A stretch of 64,000 nt of DNA. Source: Nonomuraea turkmeniaca (GTDB lineage Bacteria; Actinomycetota; Actinomycetes; Streptosporangiales; Streptosporangiaceae). Positions 17,095-56,971 of this stretch are shown piece by piece. Within the stretch, counting starts at the first letter, position 1, and every line of letters starts with the position of its first letter. Under the pieces are notes generated by a model that saw only the letters and a list, made by a program, of their open reading frames with translations, ran no database searches and was not told the origin of the DNA. The stretch spans positions 1 to 64,000 of the forward strand of contig NZ_VCKY01000007.1 of the NCBI RefSeq assembly GCF_005889735.1, in the 5' to 3' direction. A program made the position numbers and the translations under genes.

Positions 17095-17868
17095 TCATAG
17101 GGGCGTGTCGAGCAGGCAGCGAGGAGTCCCGTGCAACTCGTCGGTGACCACGCGACCGGCCACCCCGAACACCTCTGCCAGCAGCTCCGGCGTGATCACG
17201 TCCTTCGGCTTGCCGTCTGCCCACACCCGTCGCCCGTGGAGCGCGACGATGCGTTCGGCGAATCGGGCGGCGTGGTCCAGGTCGTGCAGGACGGTCACGA
17301 CGGTGAGGCCGCGCGTCGCGCGCAGGGTTCTCACCAGTTCGAGGACCTCCAGCTGGTGGCGGATGTCCAGGTGCGCGGTCGGCTCGTCCAGGAGCAGGAT
17401 GCCGGTGTCCTGGGCCACGGCCAGCGCCAGCCGTACGCGCTGGCGCTCGCCGCCGGAGAGTGTGTCGAGGACGCGGTCGGCGAGGTGGGCGACTCCGGTC
17501 AGCTCCAGCGCCTGCTCCATGGTGTCCGATTCCCACAGCAGGCCCAGCGGTCCCCGGTGCGGGTATCGGCCCTGGCGGACGAGCTGGCGCACGGTCAGCG
17601 CGGGAACGGGCGGAAGGCTCTGGTGCAGGACCGCCAGCCGCTGGGCCACCTGCCTGCGGGACAGGGTCCCGAGCTCCGCGCCGCCGAGCAGGATGCGGCC
17701 GGACGACGGCTTGAGCAGGCCCGCGATCAGGCGCAGCAGCGTGCTCTTGCCGCATCCGTTGACGCCGACCAGGGCCACGAACTCGCCTGGCTCGATGGTG
17801 AGGTCGACCCCGGCCAGGAGCGGGCGCGGGCCGTACGAGAAGTGCAGGTCCTGGACCATGACGCTCAT
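17095..17868 (-). CDS. FecE/FepC-type siderophore ABC transporter ATPase
   Basis: A 257-residue ATPase started at the ATG at 17866-17868, overlapping the permease stop as ATGA. Walker A is GVNGCGKST (about residue 36), the signature is LSGGERQRV, Walker B is ILLLDEPTAHLD, and the switch histidine is in VLHDLDHA. The layout is that of the ATPases of metal-chelate (iron-siderophore, B12) importers. It is the last gene of a four-gene uptake operon (20880 to 17095). In this locus it would power import of the metal-loaded metallophore. Confidence 0.9.
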   Translation of the reverse strand: MSVMVQDLHFSYGPRPLLAGVDLTIEPGEFVALVGVNGCGKSTLLRLIAGLLKPSSGRILLGGAELGTLSRRQVAQRLAVLHQSLPPVPALTVRQLVRQGRYPHRGPLGLLWESDTMEQALELTGVAHLADRVLDTLSGGERQRVRLALAVAQDTGILLLDEPTAHLDIRHQLEVLELVRTLRATRGLTVVTVLHDLDHAARFAERIVALHGRRVWADGKPKDVITPELLAEVFGVAGRVVTDELHGTPRCLLDTPL

Positions 17869-18902
17869 TGCGATCTTCCCAGTCTGATCAGGATGGCGGA
17901 GCCGGCCAGAGCGGTGATCACGCCGGTCGGGACGCCGAGCCGGTGTGTGCCGTTGAGGAGGTGGCCGGCGAGCTGGGCGAGGGTGTCCGCGCCGGCGAGC
18001 GCGATGGCCCCGGCGACGGCCGCGGTGAGGACGCCGCCGCCCAGCCTGCGGGCGACGTGCGGGGTGACCAGGCCGACGAAGGCGATCGCCCCCGACAGGC
18101 TGGCCGCACCCGCGGTCAGCGCGATCGCCACGGTCAGCGCCACGGCCCGGCCGAGGCCGGGGTGCAGGCCGAGCGAGGCGGCGTGATCGTCGCTGGGGGA
18201 CAGGACGGCCAGCATTCCCGAGCAGGCCCACGCCACGGCGATGCCGCCGGCGATCCACCAGGAGGCGACGGCCAGGTGTTCCCACACCCGCCCGTCCACC
18301 GAGCCGATCAGCCAGCGCAGCGCGTTGCCGAATCTACTGGGCTGGTAGGCCAGCAACATCGTCGTCAGCCCGGCCAGCAGCGCGCTGCCGAGCAGGCCGT
18401 GGACCACCAGATTGGCCGGGTCGCGGTGGGCCGACAACAACCAGGTGATCCCGCCGCCCAGGGCGCCTCCGGCCAGCGCGGCGAGCAGTGCCCCCGCCGC
18501 GGAGTCGGCGGGGAACAGGCCGAGGGTGAGCCCTCCCAGGATGCCGAGCACCGCGCCGGGGTTCACGCCGGAGAACTCGGGCGCGGCCAGCGGATTGCGC
18601 AGCGTCGCCTGCAGCACGAATCCGGAGACGCCCATGGCCGCGCCGGTGAGCAGCGCGGTGAGCAGCCGCGGCACGCCCAGCTCCCACACGATCTTCTCGG
18701 CCTGGCCGTTCACCGTGCCGTCGAGCAGGCCGGCGATCGCGCCGAGTGGCTGTCCGGAGACGGCCAGGTGCGTGGCCGCGACGACGAGGAACAGTATGGC
18801 CACCGCGGCCACGCGCCCGGACCCGGCCCTGGGGACGGCCGTGGTGTGGGTGCCCGGCTCATCGGGGACGTCAGCGGGCGTCCGCCTTCTCGCGAGCGTC
18901 AT
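17865..18902 (-). CDS. FecCD-type siderophore ABC transporter permease
   Basis: A 345-residue membrane protein started at the ATG at 18900-18902 (MTLARRRTPADVPDE), about 9-10 transmembrane segments. Family phrases visible include VPRLLTALLTGAAMGVSGFV, LRNPLAAPEFSGVNPGAVLG, and GAIAFVGLVTPHVARRLGG, the last being the cytoplasmic coupling region. It overlaps both neighbours by 4 bases. It forms the channel together with the second permease at 18899; the two are diverged paralogues as in FecC/FecD or FepD/FepG. Confidence 0.9.
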   Translation of the reverse strand: MTLARRRTPADVPDEPGTHTTAVPRAGSGRVAAVAILFLVVAATHLAVSGQPLGAIAGLLDGTVNGQAEKIVWELGVPRLLTALLTGAAMGVSGFVLQATLRNPLAAPEFSGVNPGAVLGILGGLTLGLFPADSAAGALLAALAGGALGGGITWLLSAHRDPANLVVHGLLGSALLAGLTTMLLAYQPSRFGNALRWLIGSVDGRVWEHLAVASWWIAGGIAVAWACSGMLAVLSPSDDHAASLGLHPGLGRAVALTVAIALTAGAASLSGAIAFVGLVTPHVARRLGGGVLTAAVAGAIALAGADTLAQLAGHLLNGTHRLGVPTGVITALAGSAILIRLGRSQ

Positions 18903-19912
18903 GCGGGTGCTCGCCTTCGCAGCAGGAGGGCCCCTGTCAGCACGCCGGCCAGCGCCGTCCACGCCCCGAGAGGGGTCTCCACCGGAGCGAACGCCAGCCG
19001 CGCCGCCACGTCGGCCGTCAGCGTGACCAGCGCGCCCAGCGCGGCCGACCAGGGCAGCCAGACCCGGATGCCCGCATGCGGGCGCAACCTCCTGGCCACC
19101 ACGGGGGCCAGGAATCCGACCCATGCGATGGGGCCGCAGGGACCCGTCACGACGCCGATCAGCAACGCCGACACCGCGAGGACCCCCAGCCGGGCCCGGT
19201 TCACGCGGCTGCCGAGAGAGGCGGCCGCGTCGTCCCCGAGGCGCAGCAGGCCGAGCGCGGGCACGCAGAGCACCACGAGCGGGATCGCGGCGGCGAACCA
19301 CGGCAGCGTCCTGGAGGCCTGCTCCCACATCAGGCCGGACAGGCTCCCGACGAGGTAGCGGAAGAGCATGTCGTACTGGAGGCGGTCGGCGGTGGCCATC
19401 ACGGCCAGCAGCAACGCCTGGATGCCGGTCGACACCGCCGCGCCGATCAGCAGGACGCCGCCGGCGGTCCGGCCCGTCCTGGCCGCGGCCAACGTGACGA
19501 GCCCGCCGCACGCGGCGCCCAGGAGGCCCGCCAGCGGATACAGCGAGAGCGGCACGGGCAGAGCCCACACCACGCACACGCTCACGGCCAGCGCGGCCCC
19601 GGTCGAGACGCCGATCATCTCGGGCACGGCGAGCGGGTTCCTGAGTGACTCCTGCAGGAGCAGCCCGGCCGTGCCGATCGCGGCGCCGCCGGCCAGGCCG
19701 ATCAGCACCCGGGGGACGCGCAGCTCCCACACCACGACGTACGCGATCGAATCGGGGGAGGCCGAGAGGAGGTCCTGCGGGGCCACGAACGGCGTGCCCA
19801 GGCACAGACCGGCCAGGGCCACAACGGCGAGGCCGAGCCCGGCCGCCCACGGCGCGACCGCGACCGGACGCCCGGCGGCCTTCGCCGGACGTCCATCGAG
19901 CGCAGTGCTCAC
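18899..19912 (-). CDS. FecCD-type siderophore ABC transporter permease
   Basis: A 337-residue membrane protein from GTG 19910-19912, overlapping the binding-protein stop as GTGA; the long open frame upstream of this start lies inside the binding-protein gene and is shadow. Family phrases are LRVPRVLIGLAGGAAIGTAG, LRNPLAVPEMIGVSTGAAL and GPIAWVGFLAPVVARRLRP. About nine hydrophobic segments. It pairs with the permease at 17865 to form the heterodimeric channel of the importer. Confidence 0.9.
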   Translation of the reverse strand: MSTALDGRPAKAAGRPVAVAPWAAGLGLAVVALAGLCLGTPFVAPQDLLSASPDSIAYVVVWELRVPRVLIGLAGGAAIGTAGLLLQESLRNPLAVPEMIGVSTGAALAVSVCVVWALPVPLSLYPLAGLLGAACGGLVTLAAARTGRTAGGVLLIGAAVSTGIQALLLAVMATADRLQYDMLFRYLVGSLSGLMWEQASRTLPWFAAAIPLVVLCVPALGLLRLGDDAAASLGSRVNRARLGVLAVSALLIGVVTGPCGPIAWVGFLAPVVARRLRPHAGIRVWLPWSAALGALVTLTADVAARLAFAPVETPLGAWTALAGVLTGALLLRRRAPA

Positions 19913-20880
19913 CCGGTGGCCTTGGCGAGCGCTTCGTCCAGGATGATGCCGAACGCCCTGGTGCCGCGGCCCGACGCCCACAGCTCGGTCGGCACCTCGA
20001 ACACCTTGCCCGACGCCACCGCCGGAACGCGCTCCCACACCGGATTGTCCTTGTAGCTCTCGGTGACCGAGGTCCCGAACGACTGGACGAAGATCACCTG
20101 GGGTGCCTTGGCCAGGATCTCCTCGATGCTGTAGGCCTGCGCGGTCTCGAAGCCGCCGCCCTTGCTGGGCCAGGGATAGGCGAAGAAGCGTGACATGAAG
20201 TGGCCCAGCACGTCTTCGGTGGTGTTCACGCCCACCGAGGTCCCGCCGTACATCGCCAGCACCGGCCTTTTGTCCAGCCCCGCTGCCTTGGCCCGGGCGA
20301 CCCCTTCGGCGAGTTTGGCGCGGAACCTGCTCTCGGCCGCAGCCTGCTGCTCCCCCCGGTCGGTGAGCTGAGCCAGCGCACGCAGGTATCCGACCGAGTC
20401 CTCGTACGACTTCACCTGCACCACCCACAGCGGCGCGAACTTCTCCACGGCCGTCCTGAGCTGGTCGTGCACCCCGGCGAGTCCGATCACCAGGTCGGGC
20501 TTCGCCTCGGCGATCTTGGCGACGTCCTCGCCGCCGAAGCTGCCAGGGATGACCGGAACGGCGGCGCCCTTCGCGCCCAGGTAGTCGGGGCGGGACAGCA
20601 GCTTGGGCAGAGTTGTGGCCACCGGCGTCAGGCCCAGCTCGACGAGTGCGTCGTCGCACAGGCCCGTCAGGCAGACCACGCGCTCAGGCTTCTTGGGCAG
20701 TGTGAACGTCTTGCCGTGCGGATCGGTGACGGTCAATGCCGCACTGACCGGAGTCACCGGCGAGTCGGTCGAGACCGAGGGTTGCGGCTTCGCCGAGGAT
20801 GCGGCGCTGGTTCGCGGACCGCTCTGGCCACAGGACGCCACCAGGGCCAGTGAGATCAGGGCGATGAAAAATCCCTTCAT
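19909..20880 (-). CDS. Metal-chelate-binding lipoprotein of the uptake system
   Basis: A 323-residue FecB/FepB-type binding protein with signal peptide and lipobox (LVASC, cysteine at residue 17), a linker rich in Ser/Pro/Thr, then PERVVCLTGLCDDALVELGL and the two-lobed fold (AEAKPDLVIGLAGVHDQL; APQVIFVQSFGTSVTESYKD). The start at ATG 20880 has no Shine-Dalgarno sequence of its own but overlaps the stop of a 26-codon open frame with a strong one, suggesting translational coupling. It is divergent from an ABC exporter-fold pair across two Zur-like boxes. The ligand is inferred to be the locus's own metallophore. Confidence 0.88.
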   Translation of the reverse strand: MKGFFIALISLALVASCGQSGPRTSAASSAKPQPSVSTDSPVTPVSAALTVTDPHGKTFTLPKKPERVVCLTGLCDDALVELGLTPVATTLPKLLSRPDYLGAKGAAVPVIPGSFGGEDVAKIAEAKPDLVIGLAGVHDQLRTAVEKFAPLWVVQVKSYEDSVGYLRALAQLTDRGEQQAAAESRFRAKLAEGVARAKAAGLDKRPVLAMYGGTSVGVNTTEDVLGHFMSRFFAYPWPSKGGGFETAQAYSIEEILAKAPQVIFVQSFGTSVTESYKDNPVWERVPAVASGKVFEVPTELWASGRGTRAFGIILDEALAKATG

Positions 20881-20971: not shown

Positions 20972-20986
20972 TGAAAACCATTATCA
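20972..20986. promoter_or_regulatory. Zur-box-like site
   Basis: TGAAAACCATTATCA, a 7-1-7 dyad close to the actinomycete Zur consensus as I remember it (TGAAAATGATTTTCA). It sits 15 bases before the leader peptide of the uptake operon on the minus strand. Confidence 0.65.
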
Positions 20987-20997
20987 ACACTAGACAG

Positions 20998-21012
20998 TGA
21001 AAATAGTTATCA
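20998..21012. promoter_or_regulatory. Zur-box-like site
   Basis: TGAAAATAGTTATCA, 26 bases centre-to-centre from the site at 20972 and 81 bases before the divergent exporter-fold gene at 21094. Two sites between divergent operons suggest each promoter has its own operator. Confidence 0.65.
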
Positions 21013-21093: not shown

Positions 21094-22722
21094 GTGATCG
21101 TTCATCGCCGGCTGCTGCAGCTGGCCGACAGCGTGAAAGGGCCGATCGCGGCCTGCGTGGGGCTGGGACTGGCGGTCAGCGCCGCCTATGTCGCCCAGGC
21201 GGTCCTGGTCGCCGCGGCGCTGGCGGCCCTGGTGCGCGGGGATGCGCCAGCCGCGGTGCGCCTGCTCGCCTGGGCGTTTGCCGTGATCGCCTTACGCGCG
21301 GCGCTGCTGTGGGCCAGGGAGACGGTGAGAGTGTGGGCGGGCGCGCTGATCAGGGCCAGGCTGCGCGACCGGCTGATCGTCCACCTGAGCCGGCTGGGCC
21401 CCGCCCACCTGGCCGGCGTCCGCACGGGGCACGTCCAGACCACGCTGGTCGACGGCGTCGAAGGGATGGACCCGTACTTCAGCCGCTATCTGCCGCAGGT
21501 CGTGGTCACCTTCTGCGTGCCGGTGGCGTTGGTCGGCTGGCTGTTCTCGGTGAACGCGGCGGCCGCGACGATCCTGGGCGTCGCCGTGGCGGCTGTCCTG
21601 ATCATTCCCAGGTTCTGGGACGCCACGTTGCTCAGGCGGGGCCGCGGTCGCTGGGCCGCCTTCGCGGAGCTGGCCGCCGACCATCTGGAGGCGATGCAGG
21701 GCATGGCCACGCTGCGGGCGTTCGGGGCCGTCGGCACGCTGGGGACGCGGCTGGCCGGGCGGGCGCACGACCTCTATCTCACCACCATGCGCCAGCTCAG
21801 GATCTCGCTGGTGGAGACGGGGGTGAGCGCCTTCTTCATCCAGGCGGGCACCGCCGGGGCCATCCTCGCGGCGACGACGGCGGGCAGCGCGTGGGAGATG
21901 TTCGCGGTCCTGGTGATCGCCGTGGAGTGCTTTCGTCCCGTGAAGAACCTCTCCGAAGCCTGGCACGCCGGATATCTCGGGATAACGGCGGTCGATGGCG
22001 TCGAGGACCTGCTGTCGGCGCCCCCGACGGTCGAGGACCGCGGGACGCGGCACGACCTCCCCTCGGCACCCGCCATCAGGTTCGAAGACGTCACCTTCAC
22101 CTACCCGGGCTCGAAATCTCCCGCCGTACGCGAGGTCGACTTCACCGTCGAGGCCGGTCAGACCGTCGCGCTCGTCGGCCCGTCCGGCGCGGGCAAGAGC
22201 ACCCTGGCCGCCCTCCTGCAGCGCCACTACGACCCCGACCGGGGAACGATCAGCGTCGGCGGGGTCGACGTCCGCGACCTCACGCTCGACGCGCTGCGCG
22301 GCGGCGTCGCGGTCGTGGCGCAGGACACCTATCTCTTCCACGGCACGGTGGCCGAGAACCTGCGCCTGGCCCGCCCGGACGCCACCGACGAGGAACTGAC
22401 CGCCGCCGCCCGGCTGGCCTGCGCCCATGACTTCATCGCCGAGCTCCCCGACGGCTACGACACGCGGCTGGGCGAACGTGGGGCGACGCTCTCGGGCGGG
22501 CAGCGGCAGCGCCTGGCCATCGCGCGGGCGCTGCTGGCCGACGCCCCCGTCCTGGTGCTCGACGAGGCCACCTCGCACGTGGACGCACGTACCGAGCAGG
22601 CCCTGTCCGAGGTGCGGCGGGGGCGTACCTGCCTGATGATCGCCCACCGGCCCGACACCATCCGTCAGGCCGACCGCGTGGTGGCCCTGGAGAACGGAAC
22701 CGTCCTGGAGACCGTGGCATGA
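21094..22722 (+). CDS. ABC exporter-fold transporter subunit (half of a heterodimer)
   Basis: A 542-residue protein with an N-terminal six-helix membrane domain (residues 1-305) and a C-terminal nucleotide-binding domain. Walker A is GPSGAGKST (about 365), the signature is LSGGQRQRL, Walker B is VLVLDEATS, the switch is IAHRPDT. It starts at GTG 21094 after AAGGA. Its stop overlaps the next start as ATGA, so it pairs with the product of 22719. The membrane domain resembles CydD-like and siderophore-locus transporters. It is the first gene behind a Zur-like box and probably moves the metallophore or its metal complex; direction is not decided by sequence. Confidence 0.85.
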
Positions 22723-24377
22723 CCCCGTCCATCCGCTGGCTCGCGGGCGCGGTCGGCGCCCACCGCCGGGCCTTCTTCTCCACCCTTGTCGCGAACCTGC
22801 TGGGCCAGCTCGCCGCGCTCGGCGCGGCCGTAGCCGGCGCCTGGCTGGTGGGCCGCGCGATCAGCGGGCAGAGCGCGCCGCTCGACCTGGCCGGCGCGGT
22901 GCTCGGCGGGCTGGTGGCGGTGGCGGTGCCGGCGGCGTGGTGGGAGTCGTACGTCGCGCACGATCTGGCGTACCTGGTGCTGGCCAAGCTCCGCGGGCAG
23001 GTGTACGACGCGGTCGCCAGGATCGCCCCGGCCCGCCTGCTGGGCCGCCGCAGCGGGGACCTGTCGGCGGCCGTGCTGTCGGACATCGAGACCCTGGAGT
23101 GGCTCTTCGCCCATACCTTGGCGCAGCTCATCACGGCGGGCACGGTGCTGGCGGCCGGGAGCGTGGCCGCCGCGATGATCGACCCCCTGTTGCTGCTCGT
23201 GTCGCTGCCGCTCGCGGCGTGCGTGCTCACCGTGCCGCTGTGGCTGCGCAAGGCCTCCCGCGCGCAAGGCGATGAGCTACGTGCCGCCACCGCCGAGCTG
23301 ACCTCCGACGTGGTGGACACCGTGCAGGGCATGCGCGAGTTGACGGCCTTCCGCGCACTGGAGCGCCGCAGGGACCTGCTGGCGCGCAAGACGAGCCGGC
23401 TGGCGCGCGCCCAGGCGGCGAACGCGGCACGCGGCGGGCTCGAGGCGTCCGTCACCGACCTGCTCATCGCCGTCGCGGCGGCCGGGACACTGCTGCTGAT
23501 CGCGACGGTGATCCGGTCCCCTGGAGACGCACCGGTGGCCATGGTGCTGGCGGCCAGCTCGCTCGGCCCGGCGGCGCAGGTGGCGCTGCTGCTCAAGGAG
23601 TACGGCACCCTGCGTGCGGCGGCCGATCGGGTGCACACGCTGGTCACCGCGCCCGCCAACGTGCCCCCGCCGCGAGAGGTTCTCGAGGTTTCCGCCCAGC
23701 CGGACGTGGTCTTCGAGGACGTGCGCTTCCGGTACACGCCCGACGGACCCGAGGTGCTGCGCGGGGTGTCCTTCCGCATTCCGTACGGCAAGACCGTCGC
23801 TCTGGTCGGCGCCTCCGGCGCGGGCAAGTCCACCTGCGTGTCACTGCTGCTGCGCTACTGGGATCCGGACAGCGGCCGCGTCCTGGTGGGCGGTGTGCCG
23901 CTGCCACGCATCGCCGGCCTCCACCGGCACGTCACGGTGGTGCCGCAGGACGTGCACCTGTTCGCCGGCACGATCGAGCACAACGTACGGCTCGGCGCCC
24001 CGGGCGCCGACGTGGCGAGCGCCCTGCGCACCGCCCAGCTCGCCATCGACCCGGCAGTGCCGGTGGGCGAGCGGGGCGTCACGCTCTCCGGCGGCCAGCG
24101 CGCCAGAGTGGCCGTCGCCCGGGCGCTCGCCACGGGCGCGCCGGTGCTCGTGCTCGACGAGGCGGTGGCCAACCTCGACACCGACAACGAGGCCCGCCTG
24201 GCCGAGGCGCTCCGGGAGGCGGCCGCCGGCCGGGCCACGCTCGTCATCGCGCACCGCCTGTCCACCATCCGCAGAGCGGACCACATCGTGCTCCTGGAGG
24301 AAGGACGCGTGGCCGCCGAAGGCTCTTACGACGAGCTCAGCGAGCGGCTGTCCCACCTGTTCGCGCGACAGTCGTGA
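22719..24377 (+). CDS. ABC exporter-fold transporter subunit (second half)
   Basis: A 552-residue partner of the preceding gene: six-helix membrane domain (about 1-310), then an ATPase with Walker A GASGAGKST, signature LSGGQRARV and Walker B VLVLDEAVANLD. The usual glutamate after the Walker B aspartate is present. The ALTERNATIVE of an independent homodimer is unlikely given the 4-base overlap. It converges with the methyltransferase gene at 24419. Together the pair resembles the heterodimeric IrtAB/YbtPQ class, some of which import metal-siderophores despite their exporter fold. Confidence 0.85.
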   Translation: MTPSIRWLAGAVGAHRRAFFSTLVANLLGQLAALGAAVAGAWLVGRAISGQSAPLDLAGAVLGGLVAVAVPAAWWESYVAHDLAYLVLAKLRGQVYDAVARIAPARLLGRRSGDLSAAVLSDIETLEWLFAHTLAQLITAGTVLAAGSVAAAMIDPLLLLVSLPLAACVLTVPLWLRKASRAQGDELRAATAELTSDVVDTVQGMRELTAFRALERRRDLLARKTSRLARAQAANAARGGLEASVTDLLIAVAAAGTLLLIATVIRSPGDAPVAMVLAASSLGPAAQVALLLKEYGTLRAAADRVHTLVTAPANVPPPREVLEVSAQPDVVFEDVRFRYTPDGPEVLRGVSFRIPYGKTVALVGASGAGKSTCVSLLLRYWDPDSGRVLVGGVPLPRIAGLHRHVTVVPQDVHLFAGTIEHNVRLGAPGADVASALRTAQLAIDPAVPVGERGVTLSGGQRARVAVARALATGAPVLVLDEAVANLDTDNEARLAEALREAAAGRATLVIAHRLSTIRRADHIVLLEEGRVAAEGSYDELSERLSHLFARQS

Positions 24378-24418: not shown

Positions 24419-25420
24419 TTAAGGCTTGCGGGCGGGTAGCAACGCCAGCCCGATCGGCAGATCGGCCGGCTCCTCGGGGATCAGTCCCGCCTTGACGAGC
24501 AGCTCGGCGTACTCCTCCTCGGTCCGTTCCCGTCCGGTGGTCATCACGAGCATGTGGAGGTCGAAGGCGAGGGTGAGGACGGGATCACGATGGGTGGGGA
24601 TCATTCGCTCGATCACGAGCAGTCGCGCGCCGGGCGGCATGGCGGCCGCGCAGTTGCCGAGGATGGTCTGGCACTGCGCGTCGTCCCAGTTGTGGAGGGT
24701 CCGGGACAGCACGTAGAGGTCGCCGCCGGGCGGGACCCTGGCGAAGAAGTCTCCGCCCACCGTCTCGCAGCGCGACGCCATGCCCAGCGTCGCCAGGTGC
24801 GCGGAGGCGGCCGCCGCGACCTCGGGCAGGTCGAGCAGCACGCCCCGTGCGTGGGGGGCGGCCTGGAGCAGGACCGCCAGCAGTGCGCCGTTGCCGCCGG
24901 CGACGTCGACGACGGTGCGGACGACCGACAGGTCGCACGCCTCGGGAACGGCCCGCATGAAGGCCGCGGTGGCGGCCATGCCCTCGTTGTAGATCGCGGC
25001 TGCGTCGGGACGGGCGCCCAGGTGGTCGAAGACGGAGTTGCCGAAGGCCTGGTCGAAGGCGGGGGTGCCGGTGCGCAAGGCCTTGTCCAGATGCTCCCAG
25101 GCGCGGGCGAAGTAGTCCTCTCCGTACAGGACGGCCAGTCCGCGCAGCGATCCCTCGACGCCGGTGCGGAGCAGCCGGCCAGAGGAGGTCAGGCCGTAGG
25201 CGGGGCCGGGCCGCCGCTCTAACAGGTCCAGGCCGGAGAGCAGGCGCAGCAGCCGGGACAGGGGCTCGGCTTTGAGGCCGAGCGTGTCGGCGAGCTCGCC
25301 CGCTGACCTTGGTTCGCCGGCCAGCGCGTCGAACAGGCCGAGACGGGTCGCCGTGTAGACCGCGCGGGCGGTCCAGGGCGAGATCAGCGTCGTGAGCAGG
25401 CGGGTGGCTTCGTCGTGCAT
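24419..25420 (-). CDS. O-methyltransferase (Methyltransferase_2 type)
   Basis: A 333-residue SAM-dependent methyltransferase. Residues 1-100 form the winged-helix dimerisation domain (TARAVYTATRLGLFDALAGE; LGLKAEPLSRLLRLL). The SAM site begins with VVDVAGGNGALLAVLLQ (about 166-182), and the catalytic region contains LSRTLHNWDDAQC, where a histidine corresponds to the general base of plant-type O-methyltransferases. It is 7 bases downstream of the isochorismate-synthase gene and shares its promoter. It probably tailors the metallophore (phenol or carboxylate methylation). Which oxygen is modified cannot be told. Confidence 0.8.
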   Translation of the reverse strand: MHDEATRLLTTLISPWTARAVYTATRLGLFDALAGEPRSAGELADTLGLKAEPLSRLLRLLSGLDLLERRPGPAYGLTSSGRLLRTGVEGSLRGLAVLYGEDYFARAWEHLDKALRTGTPAFDQAFGNSVFDHLGARPDAAAIYNEGMAATAAFMRAVPEACDLSVVRTVVDVAGGNGALLAVLLQAAPHARGVLLDLPEVAAAASAHLATLGMASRCETVGGDFFARVPPGGDLYVLSRTLHNWDDAQCQTILGNCAAAMPPGARLLVIERMIPTHRDPVLTLAFDLHMLVMTTGRERTEEEYAELLVKAGLIPEEPADLPIGLALLPARKP

Positions 25421-26657: not shown

Positions 26658-26672
26658 CGATAACTGTTTTCA
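26658..26672. promoter_or_regulatory. Zur-box-like site
   Basis: CGATAACTGTTTTCA, one end base off the consensus pattern, in the 123-base divergent region between the isochorismate synthase (minus) and the NRPS operon (plus). It is close to the minus-strand start, so it likely controls that operon. Confidence 0.6.
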
Positions 26673-26744: not shown

Positions 26745-26771
26745 TTTCCGTTGGCCTGAGGAAGGCGGTCC

Positions 26772-49637: not shown

Positions 49638-51376
49638 GCCTTGACCTCCGTGTTCTGCGCCCGCCACAGCCGCGCGTAAAGGCCGTCCGCCGCGAGCAGG
49701 CCCTCGTGCCTGCCCCGCTCGACGATCCGGCCCGAGTCGAGAACGAGGATCTGGTCGGCCCCGGCGATCGTGTGCAGCCGGTGCGCGATCACCATGACGG
49801 TACGGCCCGCGGCCAGCTCCGACAGCGCCTCCTGGATGGCCGCCTCGCTCTCCGCGTCGGCGTGCGCGGTCGCCTCGTCCAGCACCACCACCGGGGCGTC
49901 CTGGAGGATCGCCCGGGCGATCGTGACGCGCTGCCGCTCGCCGCCCGACAGGCCGCCGCCGTCGGAGCCGAGCACGGTGTCGTACCCGTCCGGCAGTGCC
50001 ATGATCACGTCGTGGACGCGGGCGGCCTTGGCGGCGGCCTCCACCTCCGCGTCCGTGGCGTCCGGCCGGCCCAGCCGGATGTTGTCCCGCACGCTCTCAC
50101 GTAGCAGGACCACGTCCTGGAAGACGATCGCGACGCGGCTCAGCAGCTCCCGGCTCGGGATGTCCCGCACGTCCACCCCGCCCAGGGTTATCGCGCCGCC
50201 GTCGGGGTCCCAGAAGCGGGGCAGCAGCCTGGCCATGGTCGTCTTGCCCGACCCCGACGGCCCCACCAGGGCCGTCACGGTGCCGGGGGCGAGCACCGCG
50301 CTGACGCCGTCCAGCGCGGGCGGCGCGTCCGGCGCGTACGAGAAACGCACGTCGTCGAAGACCACGCGCCCGTCGGCGGGCCGCCGCGGCTCGGCCGGCT
50401 CCGCCAGCGGCAGCAGGCCCAGGAGCCGGTCCACGTGCGTGGCGCCGAGCTGCCCCTGGCGCAGCATGTTGGCCGCCGACCCGACCTGCAGGTACGGCCC
50501 CGGCAGGCCCACGCCGACCGCGAGGAACGGCAGCAGATCCGCGGGCGGCAGCCAGCCGGCCGCCACGAAAGCGGTGCCGCTGGCCAGGATCCACACCAGC
50601 ATGGTGGCCGGGGCCAGCCCGATGTTCATCGCCGTGGCGGGCCTGCCCATCGCCGCCGTCCACGCCAGGCACCGCTGCGTCAGCGTGGTGACCGCCTCGT
50701 CGAAGCGCTGGGACGCCCGGGCCCGCCCCCCGTACGTCTTGACCACCTCGATGCCGTCCACGAGCTCCACCGTGGCTTTGGCCAGCTCCGCCTGCGCCCG
50801 GTTGTAGGTCCCCATGTGGGCCTGGTAACCGCGCTTGAGCATGGGCGACACGACCGCCAGCACCGCCGCGACGAAGCCGAGCAGCGCCAGGGTCATCCGC
50901 CAGTCCACCAGCAGCAGGTACACGATCCCGACCAGCGGCGCCACCACCGCGCTCGTCATGTCGCTCAGCGCGTGGGACACCAGGTGATGCATCCCCTTGA
51001 TGTCGTCGGAGACGGCCTTCTTCACCTCGCCCGAGCCGTGGTCACCGAACCAGCCCAACGGCAGCCGTCCCAGATGGCGGGCCAGGCGGCTGCGGATGCC
51101 GTACTCGAAGTGGCCGTTGGCGACGTGGCAGACCGAGGCGGAGGCCCCCATGAAGAAGGCACGCAGCACCGCCCCACCGGCACCCGCGATCGCCCACGGC
51201 CACACCGCGCCACCGGACAGCAGCGCCCGCCCGACCTCGGCCACCGCGATGAACGGCACCATGGCGAACAGCGCCCCGACGCCGGCCAGCGTCATCCCGA
51301 GGACCAGGCGGCCGCGTACCGGCCGCAGCATCTCCGCCAGCGCACCAGGGCGTACCAGCGCGTCGTCGTCGGCCAT
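49634..51376 (-). CDS. YbtP/YbtQ-like ABC transporter subunit
   Basis: A 580-residue partner of the preceding gene; the ATG at 51374-51376 (MADDDALVRPGALAEMLRPV) is chosen because the upstream open frame has no protein character. Six-helix membrane domain (about 1-320), then ATPase with Walker A GPSGSGKTT, signature LSGGERQRV and Walker B VVVLDEATAHAD. It begins 11 bases after the ECF transmembrane gene. Import of the metal-loaded metallophore across the inner membrane is the favoured role by analogy; export is the alternative. Confidence 0.88.
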   Translation of the reverse strand: MADDDALVRPGALAEMLRPVRGRLVLGMTLAGVGALFAMVPFIAVAEVGRALLSGGAVWPWAIAGAGGAVLRAFFMGASASVCHVANGHFEYGIRSRLARHLGRLPLGWFGDHGSGEVKKAVSDDIKGMHHLVSHALSDMTSAVVAPLVGIVYLLLVDWRMTLALLGFVAAVLAVVSPMLKRGYQAHMGTYNRAQAELAKATVELVDGIEVVKTYGGRARASQRFDEAVTTLTQRCLAWTAAMGRPATAMNIGLAPATMLVWILASGTAFVAAGWLPPADLLPFLAVGVGLPGPYLQVGSAANMLRQGQLGATHVDRLLGLLPLAEPAEPRRPADGRVVFDDVRFSYAPDAPPALDGVSAVLAPGTVTALVGPSGSGKTTMARLLPRFWDPDGGAITLGGVDVRDIPSRELLSRVAIVFQDVVLLRESVRDNIRLGRPDATDAEVEAAAKAARVHDVIMALPDGYDTVLGSDGGGLSGGERQRVTIARAILQDAPVVVLDEATAHADAESEAAIQEALSELAAGRTVMVIAHRLHTIAGADQILVLDSGRIVERGRHEGLLAADGLYARLWRAQNTEVKA

Positions 51377-51387
51377 GTCAGACTCCC

Positions 51388-52272
51388 TCACCAGTGGAAC
51401 GACGTGAGCAGGCGAAGCTGGCCGCTCAGCGCGACCGCCACCGCCAGCAGGACGGACACGGCCCAGCAGGCCGTCACGAACCACACCTCCGCGCGGCCGA
51501 ACCGAAGCCGGTGGCGCTCGGTCCGGGTCGGGTGCGCGCCGAAGGCCCGAGCGTCCATCGCCAGCGACACGCGCTCGGCATGCCGGATGGCGCTCGCCTG
51601 CAGCGGGATCAGCATCCGCCCCGTCCTGCGGACGCGTCCGCCGGTGACCCCGCGCACCCGGTGCGCGGCCGTGATCACCTCGAGCTCGTGTCGGAAACGC
51701 GGCACGAACCGCAGCGCCGCGAGCGCCCCGTAGGCGAAGCGGTACGGCACGCGCAGGTTCTGGACGAGGGCGCGCACCAGGTCGGGCCCGGTGGTGCCGA
51801 CGCCGCCGAGCAGCGCCAGGGACAGCAGGGCGAGCATGCGCAGCGTGGTGGCCAGGCCGTACTCCAGTGCGCCCGCCCGCAGCCCCAGCACCACCACCGG
51901 GGTGCCCGCCGTGACGTGCTCGGCCGCGAGCAGGGCGAAGAGCAGCGTGAACCACGCCAGGGCGGCGGGGATGACGATGAGGGACCAGCGGGGGCGCACC
52001 CCTCCCGCGGCCCACGCCAGCGCCACCGCCGCGACGGCGAACAGGCCCGGCGTCCACGGGTCGCGGACCAGCAGCAGGAAGAGCATGGCCGGCAGGGTCG
52101 CCGCGATCTTGGCCAGAGGGTTGAGCCGGGCCAGGAAGGCGCGGCGCGAGGGCCGTCGGACAGGGGGCTCAACGCGGCCGGGGAGCGCCTGCCCGGCGCC
52201 GCTTTCCGGCCGCTCGTGGCGGGGCTCCTCGAGTCGCTGATGCTGCTCGGCCGCGGAGTCGCGTACTGTCAT
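51388..52272 (-). CDS. ECF transporter T component (CbiQ-like)
   Basis: A 294-residue membrane protein with a hydrophilic N-terminus and 5-6 hydrophobic segments. The two coupling motifs with alanine-arginine pairs are visible as ITAAHRVRGV and SLAMDARAFGA (canonical xARG). It overlaps the ATPase gene by 4 bases. Together with the fused ATPase and the S component it makes a complete energy-coupling-factor importer. No vitamin genes are nearby; the metallophore context suggests a metal, its chelate, or a breakdown product as cargo. Confidence 0.85.
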   Translation of the reverse strand: MTVRDSAAEQHQRLEEPRHERPESGAGQALPGRVEPPVRRPSRRAFLARLNPLAKIAATLPAMLFLLLVRDPWTPGLFAVAAVALAWAAGGVRPRWSLIVIPAALAWFTLLFALLAAEHVTAGTPVVVLGLRAGALEYGLATTLRMLALLSLALLGGVGTTGPDLVRALVQNLRVPYRFAYGALAALRFVPRFRHELEVITAAHRVRGVTGGRVRRTGRMLIPLQASAIRHAERVSLAMDARAFGAHPTRTERHRLRFGRAEVWFVTACWAVSVLLAVAVALSGQLRLLTSFHW

Positions 52273-53942
52273 GCGATGTCCCCCAGCCGGGTCAGACCCG
52301 CCCAGTGCGGATGACGGTGCGCCAGCAGGGCGGCCGCCCGGCGCAGGGGCGGCGGCCGCAGTCCCGCCTCCTCCAGGAGCGCGTCGTCGCGCAGGACCCG
52401 TTCCACCGCCCCGTGCGCGACCAGGCGGCCTCCGGCCAGCAGCGCGACGTGCCTGGCGTGCTCGGCCACGAGCTGCAGGTCCTGGGTGACGATGACCACG
52501 GTCCGGCCCTCGTCGTTCAACGTGAGCAGCAGGTCGAGCAGCTCGGCGGCCCGGGAGCGGTCCTGGCCGAAGGTCGGCTCGTCCAGGACGAGGACGTGCG
52601 GCTCGCAGATGAGGGCCGTGGCCACCGACAGGCGCCGCTTCTCGCCGTGCGACAGCGTGAAGGGGTTGGCATCCCGGTGCCGTGCTAGGTCGAAGCGTTC
52701 GAGCAGGCGCGACACGCGCTCGCCGGCAGTGATCCCGCGCACGCGCAGGCCGTGGGCCAGCTCGTCGGCGACCGATCCGGTCACGAACTGGTGCTCCGGG
52801 TTCTGGAAGACGAACCCGACCAGATCGCTCAGCTCACGGGCGGCCAGCGCGGCCACGTCCTTCCCGCCGATCCGCACCGCGCCCCGAGGCGGCGTGCGGA
52901 CCCCGGCCATGGCCTGGGCCAGGGTGGACTTGCCCGCGCCGTTCACGCCCACGATGGCCAGGAAGTCCCCGGCCGGCACGTCCAGCGAGACATCGCGTAA
53001 CGCCGTGCGCTCACCGTGGCGCACGGTGAGCTCTCGGACGGCGATCGCCGTGGCCTGCGATGGCGGGGCGGGCCGAGGGACGGACGCCAGCGGCGGGAGC
53101 GAGCAGCGAGCGGCGAGCGCGGCGCCGAGTTCCTCCGGCGTCAGCGCCGTGGTGTCCAGCTCGACCCCGACCGCGGCCAGCCGCCGCGCGGCCAGAGCGG
53201 CCGTCGGCAGCCACACGCCAGTAGCCGCCGTCTCCTCCACACGTGCGCCGAAGACCTCCAGGGGCGGCCCGGACAGCCGCACCGACCCGGCCGCGTCCAG
53301 CACCACAACGCGGTCCACGTGCGCGATCACGTCGTCCAGATTGTGCTCGATGAGCAGCACGGCCGCGTCCACCTGGACAAGGTGGCGATACAGCTCGTAC
53401 GCGGCCACCGGATCGAGGTTGGCCGTGGGCTCGTCGAGCACCAGCACCTCCGGCCGCATCGCCAGCGCGCAGGCCAGGGCCAGGCGCTGGCGCCCGCCCC
53501 CGGACAGCGTCGCCGGATCGTCGCCGGCTCGGCCGGCCAGCCCGACCTGCTCCAGCGCCTCGGCCGCCCGGCGTTCGACCTCCACGGCCGGCAGCAGCAG
53601 ATTCTCCAGCGCGAAGCACACCTCGTCCAGCACGGACCCGGTCACCACCTGGGCGTCCGGGTCCTGGAACACCATGCCCACCCGGCCCGCCAGCGTGGCG
53701 ACCGGAGTGGTGCGCGTGTCCAGGCCCGCGACCGTGACCACGCCGTCCAGCTCGGCGGGCACGCTGTGCGGCACCAGCCCGTTGACCGTGAGCGACAGGC
53801 TCGACTTGCCGCACCCCGACGGGCCGAGCAGCAGGACAAACTCGCCCGGCGCGACCGTCAGGTCCACGCCCGCGCCCACCCAATCCGGGCCCCCGTCGTA
53901 GCGGACACGAACGCCGGTGGCCTCGACCAGCGCCTGCGTCAC
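52269..53942 (-). CDS. ECF transporter double ATPase
   Basis: A 557-residue protein with two ATPase domains, started at GTG 53940-53942 (VTQALVEATGVRVRYDG), overlapping the S-component stop. Domain 1 has GPSGCGKSS and LSGGGRQRL with VLVLDEPTANLD; domain 2 (from about residue 270) has GVNGAGKST, LSHGEKRRL and VLVLDEPTFGQD. Such A1-A2 fusions are common in YkoD-type ECF systems. It energises the T and S proteins encoded on either side. Confidence 0.88.
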   Translation of the reverse strand: MTQALVEATGVRVRYDGGPDWVGAGVDLTVAPGEFVLLLGPSGCGKSSLSLTVNGLVPHSVPAELDGVVTVAGLDTRTTPVATLAGRVGMVFQDPDAQVVTGSVLDEVCFALENLLLPAVEVERRAAEALEQVGLAGRAGDDPATLSGGGRQRLALACALAMRPEVLVLDEPTANLDPVAAYELYRHLVQVDAAVLLIEHNLDDVIAHVDRVVVLDAAGSVRLSGPPLEVFGARVEETAATGVWLPTAALAARRLAAVGVELDTTALTPEELGAALAARCSLPPLASVPRPAPPSQATAIAVRELTVRHGERTALRDVSLDVPAGDFLAIVGVNGAGKSTLAQAMAGVRTPPRGAVRIGGKDVAALAARELSDLVGFVFQNPEHQFVTGSVADELAHGLRVRGITAGERVSRLLERFDLARHRDANPFTLSHGEKRRLSVATALICEPHVLVLDEPTFGQDRSRAAELLDLLLTLNDEGRTVVIVTQDLQLVAEHARHVALLAGGRLVAHGAVERVLRDDALLEEAGLRPPPLRRAAALLAHRHPHWAGLTRLGDIA

Positions 53943-54502
53943 GAGGAGCCGCCCGCGACCTGCCGCCGCGCACCGCCCACCCCGGCCCGTGCCAGGGCCC
54001 GTACACCCAGGAGCGACAGGTAGCCGAAGACCGGTGTGCTCACCGTGGCCAGCGCCATCGCCCCGGCCATGGTGGCGGCCGACATCTGCTCGCCACCCAG
54101 GCTCACGATCAGCAGTCCTCCGCTCAGCGCGCCGATGAACGCCGACGTGATCAGGAACATCGGGGTGCCCCAGATCCGGTACCGCGTGATCATGAAGGGG
54201 ATCTCGATGAACAGGCCCCACAGGAACATCGTGATCAGCATCATCCAGCCGTACGTGGACAGCGGCATGCCCACCAGACCCGCCACCGTGCTGGCCAGAA
54301 CCCCGGCGCCGGGGCGCCGCATCATCGCCAGCCCCATCAGCGCGGGCACCGCCCACAGGCCGTAGATCAAGCTGACCAGCAGCGGGAACGCCGCCGTCAG
54401 CGCGACCGACAGCACGTTGAAGGGAATGAGCAGCAAGCCCGTGGCCACACCGATCGCCGCGCAGGTCATGATCGCGCGGGTGTCGAACCGTCGTACGGAC
54501 AT
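53939..54502 (-). CDS. ECF transporter substrate-binding (S) component, YkoE-like
   Basis: A 187-residue membrane protein with about six hydrophobic segments, started at the ATG at 54500-54502 after GGGAG; the longer frame from 54532 would enter the operator. The sequence LAMMRRPGAGVLASTVAGLV matches the conserved RRPGA segment of YkoE-type S components. YkoE relatives are linked to thiamine precursors, but here the Zur-like box and the neighbouring metallophore genes point to a zinc-related substrate. Substrate is therefore open. Confidence 0.75.
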   Translation of the reverse strand: MSVRRFDTRAIMTCAAIGVATGLLLIPFNVLSVALTAAFPLLVSLIYGLWAVPALMGLAMMRRPGAGVLASTVAGLVGMPLSTYGWMMLITMFLWGLFIEIPFMITRYRIWGTPMFLITSAFIGALSGGLLIVSLGGEQMSAATMAGAMALATVSTPVFGYLSLLGVRALARAGVGGARRQVAGGSS

Positions 54503-54541
54503 AGGGGGCTCCCGTTGAAGATCAGGACACATGCATAGAAA

Positions 54542-54556
54542 TGATAATGGATTTCA
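54542..54556. promoter_or_regulatory. Zur-box-like site
   Basis: TGATAATGGATTTCA, placed between the stop of zur (54557) and the start of the ECF operon (54502), 40 bases before that start. It would control the ECF/YbtPQ-like operon separately from zur. Confidence 0.65.
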
Positions 54557-54973
54557 TTATGTATCGATAGGGTCCGTCGCACGAGCTGATCGCTGCCCGC
54601 TCTCGCAGGCCGCGCATACGCCGTACACCTCTTCGGCTCTGAAACCGTCGACGACGTTCTCCTCTTGCCGTTCGGCCACGAGCCCGCAGACGCGGCAGAC
54701 GAGGTGGTGGTGCCCGGCGGTGCCGCACAGCCGGTAGACGGCCTCGCCCGCGTGTATGAAGACGTGCAAGAGCCCCGCCTCGGTCATCGAGGAGAGTGCG
54801 CGGTAGACGGTGGTGAGGCCGATGTTCTCACCGCGGTCGTGCAGTTCTGCGTGCACACGCTGGGCCGAGACGGGCAGCCGGTGGGCCGCCAGGACGTCGA
54901 GGACGAGTAACCGTTGACTGGTCGCCCGGATGCCGGCGGCTTCCAGCATCGGACCCCACCGAGATCTGTCCAC
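54557..54973 (-). CDS. zur: Zinc-uptake regulator, Fur family
   Basis: A 138-residue Fur-family repressor, started at GTG 54971-54973 after GGGAGG. The winged helix includes GIRATSQRLLVLDVL and NIGLTTVYRALSSM. The metal-binding half has HHHLVCRVCG (His88-90, Cys93, Cys96) and CAAC (Cys120, Cys123), the structural zinc site. Zur rather than Fur is preferred because it sits among a cysteine-free ribosomal protein and a CobW-type gene, classic Zur targets, and because Zur-type boxes flank it. It would repress the island when zinc is sufficient. It is downstream of the methyltransferase by 44 bases. Confidence 0.88.
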   Translation of the reverse strand: MDRSRWGPMLEAAGIRATSQRLLVLDVLAAHRLPVSAQRVHAELHDRGENIGLTTVYRALSSMTEAGLLHVFIHAGEAVYRLCGTAGHHHLVCRVCGLVAERQEENVVDGFRAEEVYGVCAACESGQRSARATDPIDT

Positions 54974-55744: not shown

Positions 55745-55972
55745 TCACCTGGCCTCGCGGGAGGAGTAGGGCAGCAGGGCCATCTCCCGGGCGTTCTTGA
55801 TGGCGCGGGCGATCTGCCGCTGCTGCTGCACGGTCACGCTGGTCACCCGGCGGCTGCGGATCTTGCCTCGGTCCGAGATGAACTTCCGCAGCAGGCCGGT
55901 GTCCTTGTAGTCGATGTGGCCGATGCCGAGCAGCGGGTTGGTCTTCTTTCTGGGTGTATGGCGGGGCTTCAC
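55745..55972 (-). CDS. rpsR: Zinc-independent 30S ribosomal protein S18 paralogue
   Basis: A 75-residue S18 protein beginning [20 protein letters not shown] with the conserved [20 protein letters not shown] and [19 protein letters not shown]. It has no cysteine, so it is the C-minus form that replaces the zinc-binding S18 when zinc is scarce. The GTG start overlaps the stop of the CobW-type remnant (GTGA), marking the two as one ancestral operon. Such paralogues are well-known Zur targets in actinomycetes, which supports the zinc reading of the island. Confidence 0.92.
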
Positions 55973-56426
55973 GCGCTCTCCTTCAGATCCAGCATGGGGG
56001 CGAACGGGTCGTCGTGGCCGGCCCACTCCGCGGCGCCGGGCAGGGCGTCGTCGTGGTCGATCAGGCACGAGTCGAGCAGGGAGATGATGCGGTCGCGGTC
56101 CAGGTCGGGGCCGGTGAAGACGAGGTGCTGGACGCGGTCGCCGATGATCGGGTTCCAGTCCAGCGCGGCGGCGAGGATCGGCGCAGCAGGTCGGTAAGGA
56201 GATCCTCACGGACGGTGCAGGTCATGCAGCCGTGCGCCAGGCGTATCTCGGCGCGGTCCAGCGTGCCGGACACGTCGCGGACCATGCGCTGGATGCGCCC
56301 TGCGTCGATGGGGCGCAGATCGTGGTGGATGGCGACAGCACCGGGATGACGCCGCAACAGCCGATCGACCGCGGCGGCCCGGGCGCTGGCGTGCAGGCCC
56401 GCGACCAGGGCGACAGGGACGGGCAC
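55969..56426 (-). pseudogene. CobW/COG0523-type GTP-binding protein with large internal deletion
   Basis: The gene starts at GTG 56424-56426 after GAGGAGG. Its N-terminal 80 residues ([33 protein letters not shown] with the CxxC metal site) belong to the Zur-linked CobW subgroup. Near 56180 the frame changes, and the sequence jumps to the C-terminal domain ([20 protein letters not shown], ending in a TGA at 55969-55971). About 200-250 residues are missing, including the Walker B and NKxD motifs. It is a deletion derivative, or less likely an assembly collapse. It precedes rpsR with a 4-base overlap and follows a Zur-like box. Confidence 0.8.
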
Positions 56427-56446: not shown

Positions 56447-56461
56447 TGAAAACCATTGTCG
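56447..56461. promoter_or_regulatory. Zur-box-like site
   Basis: TGAAAACCATTGTCG, 21 bases before the CobW-type remnant on the minus strand; it would control the cobW-rpsR-methyltransferase-zur operon. The first 12 bases equal those of the site at 20972. Confidence 0.6.
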
Positions 56462-56668
56462 ATATCATCGCATATGCCGTCAACCCCCGCGGGGCGCGAA
56501 TCGGGGCTCCGGCGCGGCTTCCGAGGTTCTGACGGCGCGGCACGATCGGCGCGCCGGCCGGGTCGCCGAGGTATGGATCCGCCCGATATCACGATTTCGG
56601 GCGTAACCTGAAATGTGGCAGAACCCCTATAAGGGATCTTCGGTGACGAACCGATAGGGAGTCTCGAC

Positions 56669-56971
56669 ATGTCAGTGACTGCCGAACACCGCCAGCACGC
56701 CGACCACACTCACGAGCATGGACCCGGCTGCGGGCACGTGGCCGTCCCGCACGACGATCATGTCGACTATGTCCACGACGGTTGCTTGCACCGCATCCAT
56801 GACGATCACGTGGACGAGTGCGAGCCCAAGGCGCACGCCACGCATGAGAGCCATGACCACCAGCACGGTCCGGAATGCGGGCACGTGGCCGTTCCGCACG
56901 ACGACCATGTCGACTACGTCCACGACGGACACCGTCACGCCTCGCACGAAGGTCATTGGGACGACCACTGA
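56669..56971 (+). CDS. Histidine-rich metal-binding small protein
   Basis: A 100-residue protein with 26 histidines and 4 cysteines, started at ATG 56669 after AGGGAG. Two near-identical blocks, CGHVAVPHDDHVDYVHDG (at about residues 21-38 and 70-87), are separated by a short acidic and histidine-rich linker. There is no signal peptide or membrane segment, although relatives are sometimes named zinc transporter permease in databases. It most likely binds or stores zinc in the cytoplasm. It is divergent from the Zur-controlled operon, 243 bases from its start. Confidence 0.8.
   Translation: MSVTAEHRQHADHTHEHGPGCGHVAVPHDDHVDYVHDGCLHRIHDDHVDECEPKAHATHESHDHQHGPECGHVAVPHDDHVDYVHDGHRHASHEGHWDDH

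Follow-up and report, generated by a model that had tools for sequence, protein, structure and literature searches.

A predicted Zur-controlled metallophore cluster of the coelibactin/sorangibactin family with a four-cysteine assembly line in Nonomuraea

Which aryl acid starts the putative metallophore encoded near the beginning of contig NZ_VCKY01000007.1 of Nonomuraea turkmeniaca, how many cysteines extend it, and to which metal does the cluster respond? The window, that is, the whole stretch analyzed (positions 1 to 64,000 of this contig), belongs to an 11.35 Mb, 99.98% complete genome, and its positions 17095-56971 encode an aryl-(Cys)4 nonribosomal peptide synthetase (NRPS) assembly line along with a thiazolinyl imine reductase, uptake systems, a second zur gene, a cysteine-free rpsR gene and a histidine-rich protein (Table 1). 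The first-pass annotation had described this island as a Zur-controlled metallophore cluster using salicylate and four cysteines, and all the parts that it named were located; the inserted domain of module 2, the cysteine nucleophile of the thioesterase (TE), the Zur boxes, the isochorismate synthase, the O-methyltransferase and the energy-coupling factor (ECF)-type transporter are additions to it. In our best explanation, to which we assign a probability of about 0.6, the locus is a Zur-repressed metallophore cluster of the coelibactin/sorangibactin family whose product is probably capped with naphthoate and contains four cysteines.

Gene content was derived from Pfam and NCBIfam scans, with Pfam run on 28 window proteins, and the NRPS domain order from Pfam, motifs and home-made profiles seeded by the window sequence itself. 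The comparison included 80 related loci, mostly partial clusters, and nine cluster regions with annotated domains. Papers are cited by PMC number for statements in their accessible text; among the literature matches listed, in which subscription journals are poorly covered, there was no publication on a four-cysteine Zur cluster or on a naphthoate ligase of the kind discussed below.

The assembly line and its kin

The adenylation (A) domains of both synthetases have cysteine-like codes (DLFNLSLIWK in three and DLYNLSLIWK in one, with code positions anchored by motif rules). Together with the domain scans, these codes bear out a line of four cysteine modules, three in NRPS1 and one in the terminal module of NRPS2, that is, one module more than in the three-module coelibactin-type lines compared. 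The third cyclization (Cy) domain of NRPS1 has the motif DNFVFDGLS. In the TE domains, Cys replaces Ser: the motif GYC[LM]G is present in all seven that were found among the compared clusters, and domain profiles detected no TE in the open reading frame (ORF) of a Pseudonocardiaceae metagenome-assembled genome (MAG) or in the cut C3 stretch of N. endophytica.

According to PMC10127202, the sorangibactin system and, in part, that of coelibactin have an SrbE-like protein, an Irp3-type reductase, stand-alone methyltransferases (MTs) and a terminal Cys-TE. Judging by its domains and homologs, the core of the cluster is a member of this family in which the middle module appears duplicated and a Cys code replaces the Ser-type first module. 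The window encodes a two-protein NRPS with the terminal Cy-A-MT-peptidyl carrier protein (PCP)-TE module (46-54% identity to the S. tendae and Sorangium proteins), the Cys-nucleophile TE, an SrbE-like protein and an SrbI-like reductase. In place of three modules with a Ser-type first A domain there are four modules with Cys codes throughout, and no salicylate starter genes over cut-off were found.

Among the nine annotated regions, a complete 3+1 module arrangement is present in the window, Herbihabitans, Streptomyces sp. B-S-A12 and Nocardia stercoris, and a 2+1 arrangement in S. tendae, Sorangium So0157-2 and N. endophytica C3; the regions of the Pseudonocardiaceae MAG and of the close orthologous cluster in genome G179 are incomplete. 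The NRPS1 ortholog of the latter (locus L123, contig C19) is broken near the contig end, perhaps because its near-identical A domains were collapsed in the assembly. A tree of 38 Cy domains, shown without support values, separates the first, middle and terminal domains into three groups; Cy2 and Cy3 of the window are 67% identical and both of the middle type, and the two middle Cy domains of B-S-A12 are sisters of their own. This grouping suggests that the middle module was duplicated repeatedly. The window domains A1, A2 and A3 are 85-87% identical and group together, whereas LGL[IV]H-type codes are found in the first A domain of the Sorangium, S. tendae and N. stercoris lines; recombination could account for the change of the first unit to Cys. 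In sorangibactin biosynthesis, a cytochrome P450 makes the oxazole (PMC10127202). No Pfam p450 match (CYP105N1/SrbH type) was obtained among the 28 window proteins scanned (the rest of the window and genome were not searched), which fits the change of the first unit.

The MT-like insert in module 2 of NRPS1 is best read as an epimerase of the PchE type. Its S-adenosylmethionine (SAM) motif is degenerate (ELGARTG, versus EVGAGVG in the NRPS2 MT), and a profile of five such inserts, compared with PDB sequences using HMMER and disregarding matches to C-terminal pieces of A domains, ranked residues 1072-1326 of PchE first (98.9 bits), followed by the C-methyltransferase CurJ (88.1 bits). The matching region of PchE is an epimerase inserted between A8 and A9 (PMC8807600); PchE shares the Arg of the degenerate SAM motif, and its essential H1204 aligns with the invariant His of the inserts. 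Because the motif is degenerate and the family profile favors PchE, an active MT was rejected. Two observations count against the epimerase assignment: the window insert by itself matches CurJ (58.3 bits) and not PchE, and the second key residue of PchE, E1234, aligns one residue off a Glu.

Zur boxes and the metal

Five sites in the window match the pattern TGANAANNNTTNTCA (10 positions, with a box called at 9 or more) with at most one mismatch, against 0.14 expected, and none of 100 shuffles reached five; all five lie in gaps upstream of cluster genes. In the entire genome, the exact pattern occurs at five places (none for the reversed control), two of which are in the window and one just upstream of znuA, which is followed by an ABC ATPase gene and a Fur-family gene whose product is 42% identical to the window Zur. 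The motif of 17 actinobacterial znuA genes has been given as taaTGaNAANNNTTNtCANta, and coelibactin is listed as Zur-repressed (PMC5472717). Boxes were found in 14 of the 80 related loci, versus one of 80 for the reversed control, and in all six four-module regions among the nine annotated (four complete, including the window, and two incomplete). They are located in the same place in G179, near NRPS1 in Herbihabitans, N. stercoris and B-S-A12 (a weak site), and further off in the MAG. Thus, Zur control, as claimed in the first-pass annotation, holds at the level of binding sites, and zinc control of the cluster is well supported by these predicted sites; that zinc is also the metal bound is suggested by the regulation only.

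Several observations weigh against this picture. Two of the five exact genomic places (on contigs C7 and C44) have no recognizable zinc genes; no box at 9/10 was detected in the three-module regions of S. tendae, Sorangium and N. endophytica C3, or on the G179 contig that carries the ligase and zur; and the S. coelicolor cluster is reported to be Zur-controlled (PMC5472717), yet its S. tendae stand-in lacks a 9/10 box, the S. coelicolor Zur motif being looser than the search pattern. Among further three-module regions, a box is present only in genome G128, the assembled N. soli, N. jabiensis and N. endophytica C5 regions having none.

Could the product be an iron siderophore that merely happens to be encoded near zinc genes? 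Yersiniabactin-type rings bind iron. For sorangibactin, the product of a related three-module line, Fe(III) binding and induction under iron limitation have been described (PMC10127202). However, the Zur boxes lie in the biosynthetic and uptake promoters themselves, and no iron box was found in the window or the 80 related loci (consensus with up to three mismatches), so we consider this alternative very unlikely. Another alternative retains the cluster and its Zur control but has cobalt, or more than one metal, as the cargo, which would serve to spare zinc. In Pseudomonas aeruginosa, Zur-regulated import of pyochelin-cobalt eases the need for zinc (PMC11481552), and the ECF components of the cluster belong to the CbiQ and ABC_cobalt families. 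These families are not metal-specific, however, and the S18 paralog and the histidine-rich protein fit zinc shortage, although cobalt would still be compatible with them; on balance, the cobalt variant appears unlikely.

The aryl starter

The first-pass annotation had proposed a salicylate starter activated by a salicyl-AMP ligase. An aryl-AMP ligase is indeed encoded in the cluster, but its designation as salicyl-specific is unsupported, and the comparison of the chorismate enzymes and of the ligase pocket does not support a salicylate starter. The chorismate enzyme of the cluster scores above the cut-off as an isochorismate synthase (Table 1) and at 94 bits, below the cut-off of 325.15, in the salicylate synthase model TIGR03494; its nearest solved structures are DhbC and EntC. 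No protein in the genome passes either the salicylate synthase cut-off (best TIGR03494 match, 117.2 bits on contig C145) or that of the PchB-like lyase (55.1 versus 73.35). As positive controls, the chorismate enzymes of B-S-A12 and Sorangium So0157-2 pass the salicylate synthase cut-off (442.6 and 473.5 bits, respectively). Salicylate as the default starter was therefore rejected.

The ligase has an altered pocket. At position 240 of DhbE, a presumed substrate contact, the aligned salicylate enzymes (5wm2, PchD) have Cys and the dihydroxybenzoate enzymes (DhbE, 6e8o) have Ser. The window ligase has no residue at this position and also differs at 236, 308, 329 and 337-340, so that its pocket is unlike those of the salicylate and dihydroxybenzoate ligases of solved structure. 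The pocket comparison covered 29 of the 39 ligase matches outside the window (the other 10 being without a locus), together with G217 (Sphaerisporangium) and G128. All 10 Nonomuraea ligases with 68% identity or more have the window pattern (T/P at 237 and T/S at 308 allowed), and none of the 20 others tabulated does; the altered pocket recurs in G217, and the loop alone in G128. At 66% identity or above, the shortened loop HNW.[LM]THG is found in 12 of 12 ligases and the full pattern in 11. All 12 altered-pocket genomes, out of 341 in the family, encode a thiazolinyl imide reductase that scores over the cut-off, versus 50 of the 341 overall.

The genomic neighbors of the ligase clade point to 1,4-dihydroxy-2-naphthoate. 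An isochorismate synthase over cut-off (277-319 bits, with salicylate synthase scores of at most 102) adjoins the ligase in all six other clusters checked (N. soli, N. jabiensis, N. endophytica, G138, G183 and G217; G150, G161 and G187 were left out); in the window and G179, it is encoded inside the cluster but not next to the ligase. In G128, the ligase and O-methyltransferase genes adjoin those for MenB (410.8 bits over a cut-off of 342.7) and MenD (424 over 244.2). This genome has two menB copies, 99.3% identical, versus one in 13 other genomes searched, and two menD copies, 61.7% identical. The region (L195:3447-19067) resembles a second metallophore cluster, with a naphthoate-type ligase, an O-methyltransferase, the second menD/menB, an MxcG/EntF-like NRPS piece, an ABC pair and YkoE; a three-module, coelibactin-like cluster with a Zur box lies about 16 kb away. 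MenD and MenB are also encoded in the genome of the Nonomuraea host itself.

Karamomycins contain a 1,4-dihydroxy-2-naphthoic acid substructure, and a menFDEB-fed cluster has been predicted in Sporomusa (PMC12971057); N. endophytica, the species from which karamomycins are reported, carries the ligase. Given the isochorismate synthase and menD-menB neighbors of the ligase clade, the pocket, the lack of salicylate genes and the karamomycin substructure, we favor 1,4-dihydroxy-2-naphthoate, which, provided that the starter is an aryl acid, is quite probably the one used. Its fused ring would fill the place of residue 240. The starter is also the proposed substrate of the O-methyltransferase encoded at 24419-25420, homologs of which (51-53% identity) are present in the clusters of genomes with the same ligase; O-methylation at position 4 would shield the naphthoate from oxidation.

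Against naphthoate, no menD or menB was seen in the window cluster and the host genome has a single MenB at E <= 1e-60, so that naphthoate would have to come from primary metabolism. In N. soli, N. jabiensis and G138, the same ligase is encoded beside large ORFs that, from their translations, resemble polyketide synthases (PKS); together with the lack of a 9/10 Zur box in the N. soli, N. jabiensis and N. endophytica C5 regions, this uncouples the ligase from both the four-cysteine line and zinc. Furthermore, the karamomycin structures are taken here from descriptions in other papers, and the producing strain is unsequenced. Apparent PKS-NRPS hybrid loci (L134-L136 and L178-L179 in N. soli; L174-L177 in N. 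jabiensis), with ORFs of more than 9,000 amino acids and no 9/10 Zur box, encode a window-type ligase, an isochorismate synthase and an O-methyltransferase.

The salicylate alternative would thus require that salicylate be made from isochorismate by an unrecognized lyase. Salicylate is one step away from isochorismate, the nearest solved ligase is named a salicylate-AMP ligase (5wm2, 697.7 bits), and salicylate synthases accompany one three-module relative and another, four-module one. The missing salicylate genes in a nearly complete genome and the loss, in the window ligase clade, of the C/S pocket residue that is present in 20 of 20 other Nonomuraea ligases, three relatives and DhbE, as tabulated, make this alternative rather unlikely.

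With a naphthoate cap, the pathway might run as follows. A fall in zinc would release Zur from its boxes (20972-21012, 26658, 54542 and 56447) and so allow expression of the synthetases, the uptake systems and the zinc-sparing S18. The aryl acid that the ligase loads onto the aryl carrier protein (ArCP) domain would most likely be 1,4-dihydroxy-2-naphthoate; this would come from the menaquinone pathway, with the isochorismate synthase of the cluster feeding it, and might be O-methylated. NRPS1 would add and cyclize three cysteines, with the second epimerized, and NRPS2 would add the fourth. The reductase would convert at least one thiazoline to a thiazolidine, which the NRPS2 MT would then N-methylate, and the finished chain would be released by the cysteine-TE, possibly with transfer to homocysteine, as happens in sorangibactin biosynthesis. 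Once loaded with metal, the product would re-enter the cell through the Fec-type and ABC/ECF transporters. The calculated [M+H]+ values for candidate products are 561.0753 for the naphthoyl compound with one reduction and an N-methyl group (C24H24N4O4S4), 575.0910 if it is also O-methylated and 660.0896 with a homocysteine thiolactone; the salicyl equivalents would be at 495.0648, 509.0804 and 594.0790. Gene content, domain order, the Zur boxes and the lack of salicylate genes over cut-off are direct observations on the sequence; starter identity, epimerization, ring states, release mode, repression and the metal are what we infer from them. More tentatively still, the system can be viewed as a Zur-controlled shunt of 1,4-dihydroxy-2-naphthoate into a four-cysteine line that arose from a coelibactin-like ancestor by duplication of the middle module, the product being an epimerized, N-methylated naphthoyl-tetrathiazol(id)ine released by the cysteine-TE.

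Accessory genes and known systems

The remaining features mentioned in the first-pass annotation, namely, the uptake systems, zur, the cysteine-free rpsR, the histidine-rich protein and the thiazolinyl imide reductase, were all recovered (Table 1). The first exporter-fold pair, encoded at 21094-24377, is presumably YbtP/YbtQ-like; the ECF-type transporter consists of proteins of the Pfam families CbiQ, ABC_tran (twice) and ABC_cobalt. The product of 32161-33321 was considered as a possible reductase but is a different NAD-binding protein, the reductase being encoded at 33318-34361. This putative SrbE counterpart has homologs in 76 of the 80 related loci, within the flanks covered (38.6% identity in the So0157-2 cluster), and SrbE is indispensable for sorangibactin (PMC10127202); homologs of the 35105-35848 MT (38-60% identity) are present in 40 of the 80. 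The histidine-rich protein might store zinc or act as a chaperone. The sequence at 56061-56426 (minus strand), which immediately precedes the cysteine-free rpsR and is under a Zur box, matches the N-terminal part of the MRF-type GTPase model NF047431 (about 83 of its 402 positions) and looks truncated. On contig C48 of G179, a gene for ribosomal protein S4 (L180:12676-13296) lies close to the ligase and Zur orthologs and may be a further zinc-linked paralog. The flanks look unrelated: a subtilase is encoded to the left (13518-16865), and the right flank (57467-63919) holds genes for a GH35 glycosidase, a LacI regulator and a peptide ABC system.

Table 1. Genes, domains and predicted Zur boxes of the cluster (window coordinates)
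Position	Strand	Feature	Evidence and remarks
about 17095-17874	-	FecE/BtuD-type ATPase	Pfam ABC_tran; start estimated
about 17865-18899, 18899-19906	-	Two FecCD-type permeases	First by Pfam FecCD, second from translation; starts estimated
19909-20880	-	Periplasmic-binding-protein-type metallophore receptor lipoprotein	Pfam Peripla_BP_2, 57.3 bits
20972-20986, 20998-21012		Two tandem Zur boxes	TGAAAACCATTATCA, TGAAAATAGTTATCA; divergent promoter; exact pattern matches
21094-22722, 22719-24377	+	ABC exporter-fold pair, putative uptake	Pfam ABC_membrane and ABC_tran
24419-25420	-	O-methyltransferase	Pfam Methyltransf_2, 170.6 bits
25428-26648	-	Isochorismate synthase	TIGR00543, 276.7 bits (cut-off 224.75)
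26658-26672		Zur box	CGATAACTGTTTTCA; between isochorismate synthase and NRPS2; same place in close ortholog G179
26736-26750		Weaker Zur-box candidate	8/10 positions
26772-32168	+	NRPS2	TubC_N docking-Cy-A(Cys)-MT-PCP-TE; cysteine nucleophile GYCMG
32161-33321	+	NAD-binding protein, SrbE counterpart	Homology
33318-34361	+	Thiazolinyl imine reductase (Irp3/PchG/SrbI type)	TIGR01761, 314.8 bits (cut-off 188.8); Pfam Irp3-like_C
34358-35104	+	Type II thioesterase	Pfam Thioesterase, 162.8 bits
35105-35848	+	Stand-alone MT (SrbF/G-like)	Pfam
35862-46313	+	NRPS1	ArCP-Cy-A-PCP-Cy-A-[MT-like]-PCP-Cy-A-PCP; three Cys-coded A domains
41799-42851	+	MT-like insert, NRPS1 module 2	Best read as PchE-type epimerase
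46292-47902	+	Aryl-AMP ligase, altered pocket	HNWTLT-HG, GGTK, AFG, GLCGFH
47895-51390	-	Second ABC exporter-fold pair	Start of upstream gene not fixed
51388-54532	-	ECF-type transporter	CbiQ 51388-52272; double ATPase, low end 52269, start not fixed; YkoE-like 53939-54532
54542-54556		Zur box	TGATAATGGATTTCA; upstream of ECF operon
54557-54973	-	Second Zur (Fur-family) protein	Pfam FUR, 75.7 bits
55018-55740	-	Second stand-alone MT	35% identical to 35105-35848 MT
55745-55972	-	S18 paralog (rpsR)	Pfam Ribosomal_S18; 0 Cys
56447-56461		Zur box	TGAAAACCATTGTCG; upstream of rpsR-MT-zur gene string
56669-56971	+	Histidine-rich protein	26 His in 100 amino acids

The structure of coelibactin is only predicted (PMC10127202, 2023), and the present cluster offers a relative of this Zur target that has a second Zur of its own, a defined order of four cysteines, a testable starter and products of predicted mass. 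Should the naphthoate assignment be true, the genes of the locus would become candidates for making the naphthoyl-thiazole unit found in karamomycins, and quinone metabolism would be linked to zinc acquisition. The karamomycins and the menFDEB cluster of Sporomusa termitida resemble it in the proposed 1,4-dihydroxynaphthoyl unit joined to thiazol(id)ines and differ in that the accessible text of PMC12971057 reports neither a four-cysteine line nor Zur control.

The pyochelin (PchD-G) and yersiniabactin systems share with the window the insert that is read here as a PchE-type epimerase. The Irp3/PchG-type reductase and the terminal Cy-A-MT-PCP-TE module are likewise common to them and the window, whereas pyochelin contains two cysteines, and both compounds have a salicylate starter and are regulated by iron. 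The sorangibactin cluster (SrbA-SrbR of Sorangiineae MSr11367, compared here through its So0157-2 homolog) is closer, with an SrbE-like protein, the reductase, stand-alone MTs and a Cys-TE at the end of Cy-A-MT-CP-TE; it uses one Ser and two Cys, an oxazole-making P450 and a bifunctional salicylate synthase (PMC10127202), in contrast to the four Cys codes, the isochorismate synthase and the lack of a P450 match among the scanned proteins of the window. The coelibactin cluster, represented by S. tendae, is similarly alike in the SrbE-like protein, the reductase, the Cys-TE, a stand-alone MT and the NRPS2 order, and the Zur control reported for S. coelicolor (PMC5472717) parallels that predicted here; the S. 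tendae locus differs in having three modules, a first A code (DLWQLGLVHK) that is not Cys-like, a P450 and a ligase with Cys at 240.

Herbihabitans and the Pseudonocardiaceae MAG keep the core (about 61% identity in NRPS2) but carry, where the aryl ligase would be expected, an acetoacetate-CoA-ligase-like enzyme (541.5 bits over a cut-off of 520.9 in the MAG, by likeness in Herbihabitans). In these clusters (L114:13891-16919 in the MAG, L112/L113 in Herbihabitans), its gene adjoins one for a nickel/oligopeptide-type binding protein, as scanned in the MAG. Of the other complete four-module systems, Herbihabitans rhizosphaerae resembles the window in the module that holds the MT-like insert and in having Cys codes throughout (55% and 61% identity in NRPS1 and NRPS2, respectively). 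Streptomyces sp. B-S-A12 differs in having the insert in module 1 (49% and 53%), and Nocardia stercoris in lacking it and in its first code, which resembles the one in the Ser-type module of Sorangium (51% and 49%). All three have 3+1 modules, and each carries a Zur-box-like site.

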